From contig JACPWS010000047.1 of NCBI GenBank assembly GCA_016196925.1, forward strand, positions 1 through 64,000: a stretch of 64,000 bases of DNA. Reading direction: 5' to 3'. The translations under genes were made by a program, and so were the position numbers. Of the stretch, positions 6,007 through 35,168 are shown in pieces. The notes beneath the pieces are model-generated. The model saw only the letters and a list, made by a program, of their open reading frames with translations. It was not told where the DNA came from and ran no database searches. The stretch is from Burkholderiales bacterium (lineage in GTDB: Bacteria > Pseudomonadota > Gammaproteobacteria > Burkholderiales > Burkholderiaceae_D). Within the stretch, counting starts at the first letter, position 1. Every line of letters starts with the position of its first letter.

Positions 6007-6112
6007 TCATTCTGGCGAAAGGTGTAGCAGGGGTTTCGTGGGGGATACCCCACGCCTGCGTAACGATCTTCGCTTGCAAGCGAAGATTCCTTAAGCGATA
6101 GCCAGAATCTAG
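6007..6112 (-). repeat. Variable-stem repeat module, copy A (minus orientation)
   Basis: This is a REP-like hairpin (GTCATTCTGGC ... GCCAGAATC) whose loop holds a structured insert. Read on the minus strand, the insert contains hairpin 1 TCTTCGCTTGCAAGCGAAGA (6067-6086), the linker CGTTACGCAGGC, hairpin 2 CGTGGGGTATCCCCCACG (6037-6054) and then GAAACCCCTGCTACACC. The linkers match copies B-D while both stems differ but remain self-complementary. Confidence 0.75.
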
Positions 6113-6131
6113 TGGCGTAATTACCGAAAGA

Positions 6132-6240
6132 CGCTGGATCCCCCCCTTGCAGGGCGCACTTGAGCTTGCATGCTCAAGTCGTTTCACAGGCGGGCAGCAG
6201 GCTGCCAGAATTCCCCGTTACACCCTGCGCAGGGATGACG
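6132..6240 (+). repeat. Variable-stem repeat module, copy B
   Basis: The module is bounded by CTGGATCCCC and GGGATGACGA. It contains CTTGCAGGGCGC, hairpin 1 CTTGAGC/GCTCAAG (6157-6178), CGTTTCACAGGC, hairpin 2 GGCAGCAGGCTGCC (6192-6205) and GAATTCCCCGTTACACCC. It forms a head-to-head pair with copy A and fills the rest of the pgmB-lacI intergenic space. Confidence 0.75.
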
Positions 6241-6288
6241 ACTTTAAGTTTACGGCTTAACTGAACGGTATTACCGCCAGACTCATGT

Positions 6289-7305
6289 TTATTGCGGAAT
6301 GGTACGGCGGCTCACGGTCTCGCCTGCAATCAGCACCGGCTGCCACAATTCCTGCAGCCCGGACGGCGGCGTGCCGGCTTGCAGGGCCAGCAGCAGCTCT
6401 ATCATCCTGGCGCCGGCCGCGCCGGGATGCGGCTGATCGATGGTGGTGACTTGGTAATCGGCCAGCGTGTCTTCCATGCGGCCCCAGACGATGATGGACA
6501 TGTCGCGACCGATGACGATACCGGCGTCCAGCAAGGCGCGCATGGCGCCGATGCCGGACATGTGGTTGTCGACGATGACGGCAGTCGGCGCCGGCGCGCG
6601 GGCCAGCAATTGTTGCATGGCCAGATAGCCGCTGCGTCTGTCGTTGGTGTTTTCTATCAGATGGCGCGGGTCGGGCGCCAGGCCGGCGTGTTGCATGGCG
6701 AGCTTGAAGCTGTCGAAACGCTGGCGCGCGAAATTCATCTCGAGCGGCGCGCTGATCAAGCCTATGCGACTGTGGCCGTGTTCCAGCAAATGGGCCACGG
6801 CCAGTTGCATGCCGGCCTGGTTGTCGTAATCGAACCAGGCGTGCGGCGCGTTCACGCTGGTGCGGCCGTGCGCCACGAACGGCAAACCCTGCTGCGCCAG
6901 ATAGGCGACGCGCTCGTCGTGCAGGCGCGTGCGGCCGACGATCAGGCCGTCGACGCGGCGCTCTTTCACCATGTGCCGATAGGCGCGCATTTCGTTGGCC
7001 GGCGAGACCGGCGCCATGATCAGATCCATCTGACGCGCTTCCAGCGCCTCCACCATGCCGCCCACGATCTGCATGAACATGGGATCGGCCAGGTCGTTCG
7101 GTTGCAAGGGATAGATGATGCCGACCACATTGGTGCGGCCCGACGCCAGGCTGCGCGCCATGGGATTGGGGCGATAACCGGCTTCCTCGGCCGCCGCCAG
7201 CACGCGCTGACGCGTGCGTTCGCTGACTTCAGGATAACCGTTCAGCGCGCGGCTGACCGTGGTTTCAGAAATGCCGAGATTTTGGGCGAGACGCTTGAGA
7301 TTCAT
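6289..7305 (-). CDS. LacI/GalR-family transcriptional regulator of the maltose locus
   Basis: 338 residues, a typical LacI-family length. The N-terminal helix-turn-helix is MNLKRLAQNLGISETTVSRA, followed by the hinge helix region NPMARSLASGRTN. A periplasmic-binding-protein-like sugar-sensing domain fills residues 60-335. I set the start at the ATG at 7305 because the DNA-binding domain begins there; the upstream in-frame extension is unlike the family. It is probably the repressor that recognises the CAAAGCGCTTTG palindromes upstream of pgmB and responds to maltose or a derivative. This is inference from position and operator type; AglR/MalI-like regulators are the nearest functional analogues. 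Confidence 0.9.
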   Translation of the reverse strand: MNLKRLAQNLGISETTVSRALNGYPEVSERTRQRVLAAAEEAGYRPNPMARSLASGRTNVVGIIYPLQPNDLADPMFMQIVGGMVEALEARQMDLIMAPVSPANEMRAYRHMVKERRVDGLIVGRTRLHDERVAYLAQQGLPFVAHGRTSVNAPHAWFDYDNQAGMQLAVAHLLEHGHSRIGLISAPLEMNFARQRFDSFKLAMQHAGLAPDPRHLIENTNDRRSGYLAMQQLLARAPAPTAVIVDNHMSGIGAMRALLDAGIVIGRDMSIIVWGRMEDTLADYQVTTIDQPHPGAAGARMIELLLALQAGTPPSGLQELWQPVLIAGETVSRRTIPQ

Positions 7306-7434
7306 TGAGGCCGGGCGACGAAATTTAATAGTGTAGTACAGCCGGTCGGAGCATAGCCAGCGTTTCGGACACATGCCAGTGCAATCGTACGAAGCAATGT
7401 CAATACGCGTTCAGTGCGAAACATTTCAAACACT

Positions 7435-7531
7435 GTCATTCCCGCAGCGATTTTGAGCGGGAATCCAGAGGCTTTTTCGGCAAACCAAGAAAAACGACAC
7501 TGGATTCCCGCTAAAACCACGCGGGAACGAC
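7435..7531. repeat. REP/dRS3-like inverted pair
   Basis: Two hairpin-type repeats face each other: GTCATTCCCGC...GCGGGAATCCAG and CTGGATTCCCGC...GCGGGAACGAC. They lie in the gap between the GH31 gene and lacI. Confidence 0.7.
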
Positions 7532-7573
7532 GAGATGTTTGACGCAAGTGGCTTCCTGCGACTGCCCTGAGAT

Positions 7574-32820: not shown

Positions 32821-34560
32821 ATGAAGTCGAAATTCAGCAGGCCCTCGATACGTACTATGGCAGCCTTGTTGGCCGTCTTGCCCTTGGCGCTGGGCGTCGC
32901 CTGCGCCGAGGAAAAGAAGGACGATAAAGCCCACGGCGCAGCCGAACTGAAGTATCAGGCCGGTGGCTCTCCGCTGGCGAACGAGGCCATGCACCAGAAC
33001 ATCAACCCCAAAGCGCCGCCTATGACCAAGGCGGAATTCGAAACTGGCAAGCAAATCTATTTTCAACGTTGCGCCGGCTGTCACGGCGTGTTGCGCAAGG
33101 GCGCCACCGGCAAACCATTGACACCGGACATCACGCTCGACAAGGGCACCGATTACCTGAAAGTCTTCATCAACTACGGCTCGCCGGCCGGCATGCCCAA
33201 CTGGGGCACTTCCGGCGATTTGTCGGAGAAAGAAGTCGACCTGATGGCGCGCTACATCCAGCAAGAACCGCCGGTGCCGCCAGAATTCAGCATCCAGGAC
33301 ATGCTGGCGACCTGGAAAGAAGTGATCCCGGTCGCTCAGCGTCCGAGCAAGAAGATGAATAGCTACAATATCGCGAATATCTTCTCCACCACCTTGCGCG
33401 ATTCCGGCGAAGTGGCGCTGATCGACGGCGACACCAAGAAAATCATCAATATCGTCAAGACCGGTTACGCCGTGCATATCTCGCGCACCTCCGCTTCCGG
33501 CCGCTACCTGTTCGTGATCGGGCGCGACGCCCGCATCAACCTGATCGACCTGTGGATGGAAAAACCGGACACCGTGGCCGAGATGAAAGTCGGCCTGGAA
33601 GCGCGCTCTATCGAAACCTCCAAGTTCAAGGGTTACGAAGACAAATATGCGATCGCCGGCGATTACTGGCCGCCGCAATTCGTGCTGATGGAAGGCGACA
33701 CGCTCAAGCCGCTGAAGATCGTTTCCACGCGCGGCATGACAGTCGACAATGTCTACCATCCTGAACCGCGGGTCGCTTCCATCGTCGCTTCGCACTATCG
33801 TCCCGAATTCGTGGTGAACGCCAAGGAAACCGGCAAGATCATGCTGGTCGACTACAAGGACATCAACAACCTGAAGATGACCACGCTGGACGCCGCCAAG
33901 TTCCTGCATGACGGCGGCCTCGATTCTACCGGCCGTTACTTCCTGGTGGCGGCCAACGCCTCCAACAAGATCGCGGTAGTCGACACCAAGGAAGACAAGA
34001 TGGCGGCCCTGGTCGATGTCGGCAAGACCCCGCATCCGGGGCGCGGCGCCAACTTCGTGCATCCTAAGTTCGGTCCGGTCTGGGCCACCAGCCATCTCGG
34101 CGACGAAAGCATTTCCATGATAGGCACCGATCCGGTCAAGCATAAGGATCAGGCCTGGAAAGTGGTGGCTACCATCAAGGGCCAGGGCGGCGGCTCCCTG
34201 TTCATCAAGACCCATCCCAAGTCCAGGAACCTGTGGATCGATACGCCTTTGAATCCGGACGCCAAGCTGAGCCAGTCGGTCGCCGTCTTTGACATCGCCC
34301 ATCTGGAACAAGGTTATGTCACCCTGCCTATCGCCGAATGGGCGAACCTCGGTGAAGGCGCGAAACGTATCGTCCAGCCTGAATACAACAAGGCCGGCGA
34401 TGAAGTCTGGTTCTCGGTCTGGAGCGCCAAGGACAAGCAATCCGCGATCGTGGTGGTGGATGACAAGACCCGCAAGCTGAAAGCCGTGATCAAGGATCCT
34501 AAACTGATCACGCCTACCGGCAAGTTCAACATCAACAATACCCAGCACGACGTGTATTAA
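32821..34560 (+). CDS. nirS: Cytochrome cd1 nitrite reductase
   Basis: 579 residues, periplasmic, with a signal peptide ending near GVACA. It reduces nitrite to NO. The c-heme domain has CAGCH at 84-88 and a GMPNW segment for the distal side. The eight-bladed d1 propeller follows, with conserved VASHYRPEF and [13 protein letters not shown], which carry the active-site histidines, and the terminal [17 protein letters not shown] precedes the ATG at 32821. It is followed after 10 bp by its electron donor cytochrome. No heme d1 biosynthesis genes (nirE, J, D, L, G, H, F, N) are present in the window. Confidence 0.97.
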
Positions 34561-34570
34561 GGAGTAGCAG

Positions 34571-34906
34571 ATGAAACATCAACTAGGATGGTCGCTGATC
34601 GCCGCCTGCGGCGTCGCCGCCCTGGCTTTCAGCGCCGGCACGTCATACGCGGCGACCGGCGCCGAACTGGCGCAGAAAAACGGCTGCATCGCTTGCCACA
34701 GCGTGGACAAGAAAGTGCTGGGACCGGCGTTCAAGGACGTATCTAAAAAATACAAGGGAAATGCCGATGCGGTCGCCATGCTGTCCAAGAAAATCAAGGA
34801 TGGCAGCACCGGCGTCTGGGGCCCCATCCCCATGCCGCCTAACGGCCCGCGCGTCAGCGACGCCGACATCAAGGTGCTGGCCGAGTATGTGTTAGCGACG
34901 AACTGA
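34571..34906 (+). CDS. nirM: Cytochrome c551/c8, electron donor to nitrite reductase
   Basis: 111 residues with a signal peptide ending near SYAA. A small class I cytochrome c with CIACH at 39-43 and an axial methionine in PIPMPPNGPRVS. It should shuttle electrons from the bc1 complex to NirS in the periplasm. An ideal AAGGAG ribosome binding site overlaps the end of nirS. A strong terminator follows. Confidence 0.94.
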   Translation: MKHQLGWSLIAACGVAALAFSAGTSYAATGAELAQKNGCIACHSVDKKVLGPAFKDVSKKYKGNADAVAMLSKKIKDGSTGVWGPIPMPPNGPRVSDADIKVLAEYVLATN

Positions 34907-34921
34907 GTTCGCGCTCAACAG

Positions 34922-34958
34922 AAAAGCGCACCGGCCAGACGGCCTGTGCGCTTTTTTT
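34922..34958 (+). terminator. Intrinsic terminator of nirSM
   Basis: AAAAGCGCACCGGCC pairs with GGCCTGTGCGCTTTT (one mismatch) and continues into a T run. It begins 16 bp after the nirM stop. Confidence 0.9.
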
Positions 34959-35061
34959 ATCTGGAAAATTTGTCCACGAAATACACGAAAAGCACGAAAA
35001 AAAACTCCCCTTGTGTCATTCCCGCGCAGGCGGGAATCCAGTGCCGTGATAAGCAACAGTC

Positions 35062-35168
35062 GCTGGATCCCCGCTTGCAGGGCGCACTTGAGCAAGTATG
35101 CTCAAGCCGTTACGCAGGCGAGCAGCATGCTACCCGAATTCCCTGCTTCACCCTATGCGGGGATGACG
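35062..35168 (+). repeat. Variable-stem repeat module, copy D
   Basis: It is bounded by GCTGGATCCCCGC and GCGGGGATGACG, which pair with each other. Hairpin 1 is CTTGAGC/GCTCAAG (35087-35106), then CCGTTACGCAGGC, an imperfect hairpin 2 around AGCATGCT (35122-35134), and GAATTCCCTGCTTCACCC. Confidence 0.75.

Follow-up and report, generated by a model that had tools for sequence, protein, structure and literature searches.

The locus examined here raises the question of how the hairpin stems of a short DNA repeat can change in sequence from copy to copy and still remain complementary. The window (the whole analysed stretch, positions 1 to 64,000 of contig JACPWS010000047.1 from a Burkholderiales bacterium) contains four copies, A to D, of an 82-nt module, one on the minus strand and three on the plus strand in covariance model coordinates. 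The original prediction, made from the letters alone, had claimed four copies with differing, self-complementary hairpin stems; all four are present and the stems had been quoted correctly. On the strand as written, the module reads HP0 - GCGCR or GGAA - HP1 - CGTTNC - GCAGG - C - HP2 - GAAAC or GAATT - C - CCTGC - TNCACC, HP standing for hairpin. We observed that its structure is conserved, that it is dispersed, and that it is nested in different outer repeats. We consider it probable that the module is a non-autonomous mobile repeat of Betaproteobacteria, similar to repetitive extragenic palindromes (REPs) and recognised as a folded single strand.

Three stems of the module change in pairs

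The covariance model R1 was built on an alignment (A1) of 19 copies, picked for diversity out of 44 copies of the window's own genome. The 44 copies had been pre-filtered for at least 6 of 7 HP1 pairs (HP2 was unfiltered), so HP1 counts from this set, both in A1 and in the spanning tree described below, lean towards pairing. RNAalifold proposed HP1 and a bulged HP2 on A1 unprompted. Standard pairs filled 94.3% of cells, compared to 72.7 ± 1.3 with partners dealt anew (19 rows), and both-side cells numbered 96, compared to 28.0 ± 4.5 in shuffles. Alignments A2 and A3 were fitted to the model; both-side cells in A2 reached 570, compared to 190.6 ± 11.4 in shuffles. Slid structures all scored far lower than the true one. 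A measure of further pair types was unremarkable, being reached by 142/500 and 465/500 shuffles. HP0 fared less well, at 77.6% and 71.8% of cells, and RNAalifold did not propose it.

A stem-blind pattern in which only linkers 2 and 3 were fixed (23 specified bases) was scanned over the genome_contigs collection and recovered at least 108 stretches with 116 modules, 104 of them unique. HP2 was Watson-Crick in 580/624 cells of these 104 modules and HP1 (8 pairs) in 700/832. The loop centres were recurrent, with TTGCAA in 42/104 HP1 and CATG in 39/104 HP2. With a relaxed linker pattern, all fetched loci together yielded 192 unique modules (110 from the pattern scan, 47 from the own genome and 35 from other genomes via R1 or a further model, R2). 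Pairing in this larger set was 0.93 for HP2 (134 unique strings) compared to 0.49 with arms dealt anew, and 0.87 for HP1 (154 unique strings) compared to 0.37.

We observed a third covarying stem inside linkers 2 and 3. GCAGG pairs with CCTGC, and HP2 is therefore made up of a 5-bp stem, a bulge of 5 nt and a stem of variable sequence. This basal stem was Watson-Crick in 941/960 cells of the 192 modules and occurred in at least 12 fully paired types, including GCGGG/CCCGC, GCTGG/CCAGC, GCCGG/CCGGC, ACAGG/CCTGT, GTCAG/CTGAC and GGCGG/CCGCC. Linkers 2 and 3, which the original prediction had placed between the hairpins, are thus not plain single strands.

Paired changes extend over 192 distinct modules and 20 named genera, which supports the earlier proposal of selection on structure. 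Covariation grew stronger with more copies, the opposite of what unrelated palindromes or independent stems would give. The stem sequences vary freely and need only to pair. The unpaired bases (tag, bulge, linker and loop centres) and the basal stem are the most constant parts, and the basal stem still changes in pairs.

The module is dispersed in the genome and across Betaproteobacteria

The earlier proposal to search the genome and its relatives with a covariance model was carried out. R1 gave 85 matches in the own 3.5-Mb draft genome (weakest match E 3.2e-4) and 87 when fetched stretches were searched; BLAST with copies A and B gave 74. With R1 and stricter filters, 34/60 genomes (own included) had matches, from 0 to 77 per genus member. 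At least 27/399 genomes of the order matched at E up to 1e-6. In the phylum, model R2 with a cutoff of E 1e-5 matched at least 4/398 genomes, namely the own one, two further members of its family, and G572, which belongs to another order. The order and phylum counts are minimum values, since scoring was confined to 11 candidates per genome under strict filters.

Nearly all stretches found with the stem-blind pattern were labelled Betaproteobacteria. They covered at least 20 named genera: Undibacterium, Massilia, Pseudoduganella, Janthinobacterium, Rugamonas, Collimonas, Herbaspirillum, Lacisediminimonas, Glaciimonas, Paucimonas, Cupriavidus, Aromatoleum, Thauera, Azoarcus, Parazoarcus, Denitromonas, Methyloversatilis, Propionivibrio, Methylophilus and Methylotenera. 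Some of these genera are represented by metagenome-assembled genomes (MAGs), and more MAGs had a higher-rank label only (two of them Proteobacteria or Pseudomonadota). One match lay on a contig labelled as a cyanobacterial MAG (Richelia, L174), which may be contamination. The exact linker pattern had no match in viruses, and one Undibacterium module used as query against plasmids matched two Cupriavidus metallidurans megaplasmids only.

The match in G572 (same class, another order; L349:1501-1582, 42.5 bits) lies just 3' of a gene that we take to be RimK-like. On the minus strand it consists of HP1, CGTTCG-CCGGC, HP2 GCGACGCATGCGTCGC and GAAAG-CCCCGGC-TCACC; the linker is one base shorter, the basal stem is GCCGG/CCGGC, and HP2 and the CACC end are kept. 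Judged by its sequence, this single match is a candidate member outside Burkholderiales, and the family may reach beyond that order. This widens the possible range of the family and leaves the odds on the explanations unchanged.

Another genome of the order (G420:C1, L298-L317) had 53 matches, many of them weak, and contained another subfamily, which lies within CCCCTTGAAGGGGAGGG repeats and differs in its HP1 (CTCCGCTTCGCTCCG). The module and its flank also occurred in tandem, with 5 copies of 186 nt at L293:5101-6030 and 3.3 copies of 148 nt at L294:5236-5729. Evenly spaced copies in G331 and G420 were considered as CRISPR- or integron-type arrays; this was rejected because they are tandem duplications (99% and 95% matches).

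Four copies in the window

Copy A (6021..6102, minus strand) scored 91.7 bits with R1, and its DNA fold had z-scores of -5.5 on one strand and -5.6 on the other. HP0 is not formed; HP1 is TCTTCGC-TTGCAA-GCGAAGA, HP2 is GTGGGG..CCCCAC and the basal stem is GCAGG/CCTGC. Copy B (6143..6224, plus strand; 86.1 bits; fold z -1.4 on plus, -1.0 on minus) has HP1 CTTGAGC/GCTCAAG and HP2 GGGCAG..CTGCCA, in which the outermost pair is the single true mismatch; its basal stem ACAGG/CCCGT contains one A.C. Copy C (30593..30674, plus strand; fold z -3.7 on plus, -2.9 on minus) had the genome's top score, 102.4 bits, and comprises HP0 CCCT-TGC-AGGG, HP1 TCTGCGC/GCGCAGA, HP2 AGGCGACATGTCGCCT and basal stem GCAGG/CCTGC. 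Copy D (35071..35152, plus strand; 85.2 bits; fold z -2.1 on plus, -1.4 on minus) has HP1 CTTGAGC/GCTCAAG and basal stem GCAGG/CCTGC. Its HP2, GAGCAG..CTACCC, is imperfect, as had been noted: two A.C mismatches on the plus strand are two G.T wobbles on the minus strand, where the stem thus has no mismatch left.

The linkers are less uniform than first described. All three are exact in copy C only; copy A is without linker 1, where CTTAAGGAA stands, copy B differs at two positions of linker 2 and also in linker 3, and copy D has one change, in CCCCTGCTTCACCC of linker 3. Copies A and B face each other (window:6000-6250) and together resemble a dimer of the bacterial interspersed mosaic element (BIME) type. 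The whole pair recurs elsewhere in the genome over ~244 nt, with 89% identity on contig 49 (L027) and 73% on contig 88 (L048).

Copy C is located 5' of a VWA-domain gene. Copy D lies between a cytochrome cd1 gene and an NnrS gene, presumably a denitrification cluster. R1 matched 2/14 nirS loci from the own genome and 13 relatives (own and L324). L321 (G014) alone had nnrS adjoining nirS, as a partial match ~40 nt away and with no module, compared to the ~860-nt gap here.

The module is nested in different outer repeats

Arms resembling those of CGTC-REPs surround copy A (6005..6112, minus strand; GATTCTGGC ... GCCAGAATGACG), as judged from the sequence and the CGTC-REP description (PMC3733652). 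Similar arms surround copy B, imperfectly (6132..6240, plus strand; CTGGATCCC ... CAGGGATGACG), and copy D (35063..35168, plus strand; CTGGATCCCCGC ... GCGGGGATGACG). The placement of these three copies inside REP-like hairpins had been predicted and holds; the prediction had left out that copy C also lies between repeats (CCCATCCCC ... CCCTCCCCTTGAAGGGGAGGG), of a type differing from A, B and D. Its outer repeat (30529..30701, plus strand) reads CTCCTCCCCTTTCAAGGGGGAGG ... CCCATCCCC, the module, CCTAGCCCTCCCCTTGAAGGGGAGGGG, and belongs to the CCTCCCC flank class. The 87 copies of the own genome had CGTC-REP flanks in 39 cases by strict pattern, the CCTCCCC repeat in 14 and other flanks in 34; some of the last are decayed CGTC arms, and some include the palindrome AAATGGGAAGTGTCCG...CGGACACTTCTTTTTCCATTT. 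Outer stems of at least 7 bp were found in 17/80 copies, compared to 7.2% in letter-shuffled flanks.

CGTC-REP-like hairpins without a module occur in the window at 310-335, 5005-5030, 47685-47710 and 58394-58419. Beside copy D, an 11-base tandem repeat (CCTCTGTATTT) runs for about six units (window:35255-35320), and similar tracts (CACAGAGG) flank some modules. In C. metallidurans, the sequence on the 5' side of the module (L361:2947-3002) matches a repeat with at least 40 matches in each of two Neisseria gonorrhoeae records, and is another mosaic partner of the module.

Evidence for and against a mobile, single-stranded element

Both the patchy copy number and the occurrence inside unrelated repeats argue for mobility. 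We assessed the strand that folds from mismatch polarity, given that G.T on one strand reads A.C on the other. Among the 192 modules, HP2 showed 26 A.C and 6 G.T on the written strand, and the outer pair of HP1 showed 33 A.C and 4 G.T (HP1 classes come from those 131/154 unique strings of HP1 in which 5 or more pairs were Watson-Crick). The excess of A.C makes the complement the better candidate for the folded strand. On the complement, the outer REP also has its CGTC tag on the 5' side. These data suggest that the complement of the written strand is the folded strand.

Several observations weigh against this reading. The inner HP1 pairs were weakly biased (13 A.C, 8 G.T), the basal stem was slightly reversed (6 A.C, 9 G.T), and other mismatches in HP2 were as many as A.C (26 each). 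The strand call is suggestive only because the sequences are related by descent, and the DNA-fold z-scores are weak in copies B and D. We observed no replication-strand bias in G026 (14 and 15 of 29 copies), a genome of two contigs with dnaA at 1.3 kb, its terminus being taken as opposite dnaA; IS200/IS605 elements, for which such a bias is known, differ from the module in this respect. The data gave no exact ends, no clean empty site and no target-site duplication, although duplications were not systematically searched. In favour of mobility, Cupriavidus sp. EM10 has the same intergenic place without the C. metallidurans copy (flanking genes ~88% identical). Neither this place nor L321 is a clean empty site, so a target preference is not shown.

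The enzyme search also weighs against it. Y1_Tnp was surveyed in the own genome and 30 relatives, five less complete genus members being left out. Y1 genes were present in 31/31 members, including four without a module match (G005, G011, G022 and G029), and Y1 and module counts therefore do not track. None of 11 scanned Y1 loci (of 96 Y1_Tnp matches) carried a flanking module with R1, although a distant cognate acting in trans is possible. A single Y1 transposase gene is present in the own genome, and its 3.3-kb locus is free of modules. No enzyme was linked to the module in this survey of 31 genus members and 11 Y1 loci.

Two side observations were made in these genomes. None of the 29 modules of G026 falls within 1.67-3.69 Mb of C1 (6.48 Mb), a 2.0-Mb interval around the likely terminus; this was noted post hoc in one genome. 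A GGTGAAG after the Y1 gene in L057 looks like a simple stem and was not taken as a module.

Alternative explanations

The module could instead act as an RNA element in transcripts (a 3'-end stabiliser, attenuator or protein-binding RNA), with covariation reflecting host selection on RNA. The covariation and conserved unpaired bases resemble structured RNA, the A.C/G.T bias suggests a single folded strand, and many REPs are described as plausibly transcribed (PMC3733652). However, the module has no preferred orientation towards genes: the 55/87 matches that lay between two scored open reading frames (ORFs) comprised 16 ++, 15 --, 16 convergent and 8 divergent arrangements. Of the remainder, 26/87 overlapped an ORF of at least 80 aa, many of which may be spurious given the crude ORF caller, and 6/87 had no neighbour. 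The range from 0 to 77 matches among congeners also argues against host selection on RNA. Moreover, G.U on the better strand was no commoner than other mismatches in HP2 (26 each). Rfam 15 had no match above gathering in the window; in a permissive search of four module-bearing loci, four matches turned up, each far under that threshold and none over a module. We regard an RNA role as unlikely.

A site in double-stranded or cruciform DNA, bound by a nucleoid, gyrase-type or recombination protein and with palindromes that extrude, would fit the mostly intergenic, orientation-neutral placement. It would also fit HP1 and HP2, which are mostly palindromes with often self-complementary centres (TTGCAA, CATG). 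For a symmetric duplex site, however, the asymmetric 5-nt bulge and the strand-biased mismatches are unexpected, and the patchy distribution also argues against it. This makes such a site a decidedly improbable explanation.

Templated copying between arms (quasipalindrome correction) would make paired changes without selection on shape, and the original prediction had raised a copying process that re-pairs stems. We assessed this with a minimum spanning tree of the 44 copies. Two-sided stem changes dominated long edges (31 compared to 2 one-sided on edges of more than 14 differences; 15 compared to 4 on edges of 9-14), and one-sided standard-pair changes were rare on A1 (1/418 cells). On the 29 edges of up to 8 differences, however, 13 changes were one-sided and 6 two-sided, with 85 changes in 46 columns outside the three stems. 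The basal stem covaries too, its arms lying 23 nt apart with a hairpin and bulge between them. The stems are held back and change via single-side intermediates. Because one-sided changes prevail on short edges, ordinary mutation and compensation suffices and a special re-pairing process is not needed; we judge templated copying very improbable.

Separate palindromes, their linkers alike by chance or through composition, are practically excluded, in a genome that is rich in REP-like palindromes, by 85 model matches and by a 23-base linker pattern in at least 108 stretches, nearly all from Betaproteobacteria.

A proposed route of spread

Under the explanation that we favour, a mobile repeat recognised as a folded single strand, the complement strand would fold as GGTGNA, then GCAGG, the bulge GGTTT, C with a variable 6-bp stem (loop often CATG) and CCTGC. 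There would follow GNAACG, a variable 7-8-bp stem (loop often TTGCAA) and YTCC, often with a third small hairpin. An enzyme reading hairpin geometry and unpaired bases would copy the module or insert it, the target often being the loop of a palindromic repeat already in place, for instance a CGTC-REP; the nearest precedent is a Y1 HUH protein such as RAYT (REP-associated tyrosine transposase). A copy that lost pairing would stop spreading, which would keep stems complementary.

More tentatively, the module may belong to a class of nested mobile DNA that has not been described before: it would be an autonomous unit of two hairpins and would enter the loops of other, unrelated palindromic repeats through an enzyme reading only unpaired bases and geometry. 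If so, stem sequences would drift freely and each genome would be a natural library of recognition variants. That shape is kept across many genera and stem sequence is not suggests which bases matter (tag, bulge, linker and loop centres). The module family offers ready-made substrates on which single-strand enzymes can be tested, and the covariance model marks some 85 stretches in one genome.

Comparison with known systems

GTAG-REPs and BIMEs, with their RAYT (TnpAREP) enzymes, are described as dispersed intergenic imperfect palindromes subject to single-strand recognition, a conserved tetranucleotide preceding the bulged stem in E. coli REPs (PMC8266576, PMC2817692). GTAG-REPs are bulged imperfect palindromes or short perfect ones, and a cognate RAYT gene is present in the genome, as a rule close to its REPs. 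The module is likewise palindromic, with a bulged HP2 (RNAalifold) and 85 matches, many intergenic. Unlike GTAG-REPs, it has two and often three hairpins in fixed order over 66-82 nt, a 5-nt one-sided bulge, and no copy beside the 11 scanned Y1 loci. GTAG-REPs have the GTAG motif directly 5' of the hairpin on the folded strand; in the module the base before AG at this position is free (GNAG), so GTAG occurs in only about a third; the commonest starts were GGTGTAGC (57), GGTGGAGC (45), GGTGAAGC (34) and GGTGCAGC (24) of 192.

CGTC-REPs have a CGTC tag, an 8-9 bp stem, loops mostly of 4-5 nt and a CCA tail, and are said to be without a dedicated transposase (PMC3733652). How REPs spread is called poorly understood (PMC8266576). 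Both the CGTC tag and an AT-first stem are present in the hairpins that enclose copies A, B and D. In contrast to CGTC-REPs, the module replaces the loop, and it also occurs outside them, in copy C, which is without CGTC arms, and with at least three other flank types.

The module is short, intergenic and foldable, as are structured bacterial miniature inverted-repeat transposable elements such as BOX, Bcr1, NEMIS/Correia and ERIC, and its copy number is patchy. Elements of this type have terminal inverted repeats and a target-site duplication that match those of an insertion sequence. The module's stem sequences, unlike theirs, are far more variable than its linkers, and no terminal inverted repeats or target duplications were found, the latter not having been systematically searched. 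Bcr1, NEMIS and ERIC are named in one paper (PMC3733652).

With integron attC sites the module shares variable stems and fixed unpaired bases. An attC site is recognised as a folded single strand and has boxes RYYYAAC/GTTRRRY. These boxes do not fit GTTNCG of the module, which also has two hairpins and was not seen in a cassette array. The linker CG[TC]TNC was present in 192/192 modules, as the search pattern demands; the attC box is excluded because R is incompatible with the C found two bases downstream of GTT (the R'' box was not searched).

We found no literature description of this module by linker string (full-text matches were unrelated by title) or by topic (judged from titles and the opening of abstracts). 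REP stems with complementary changes and REPs inside other palindromes are already reported in the CGTC-REP paper (PMC3733652), and the kind of element is therefore known. The two-hairpin architecture, with its covarying basal stem and fixed bulge, is new.

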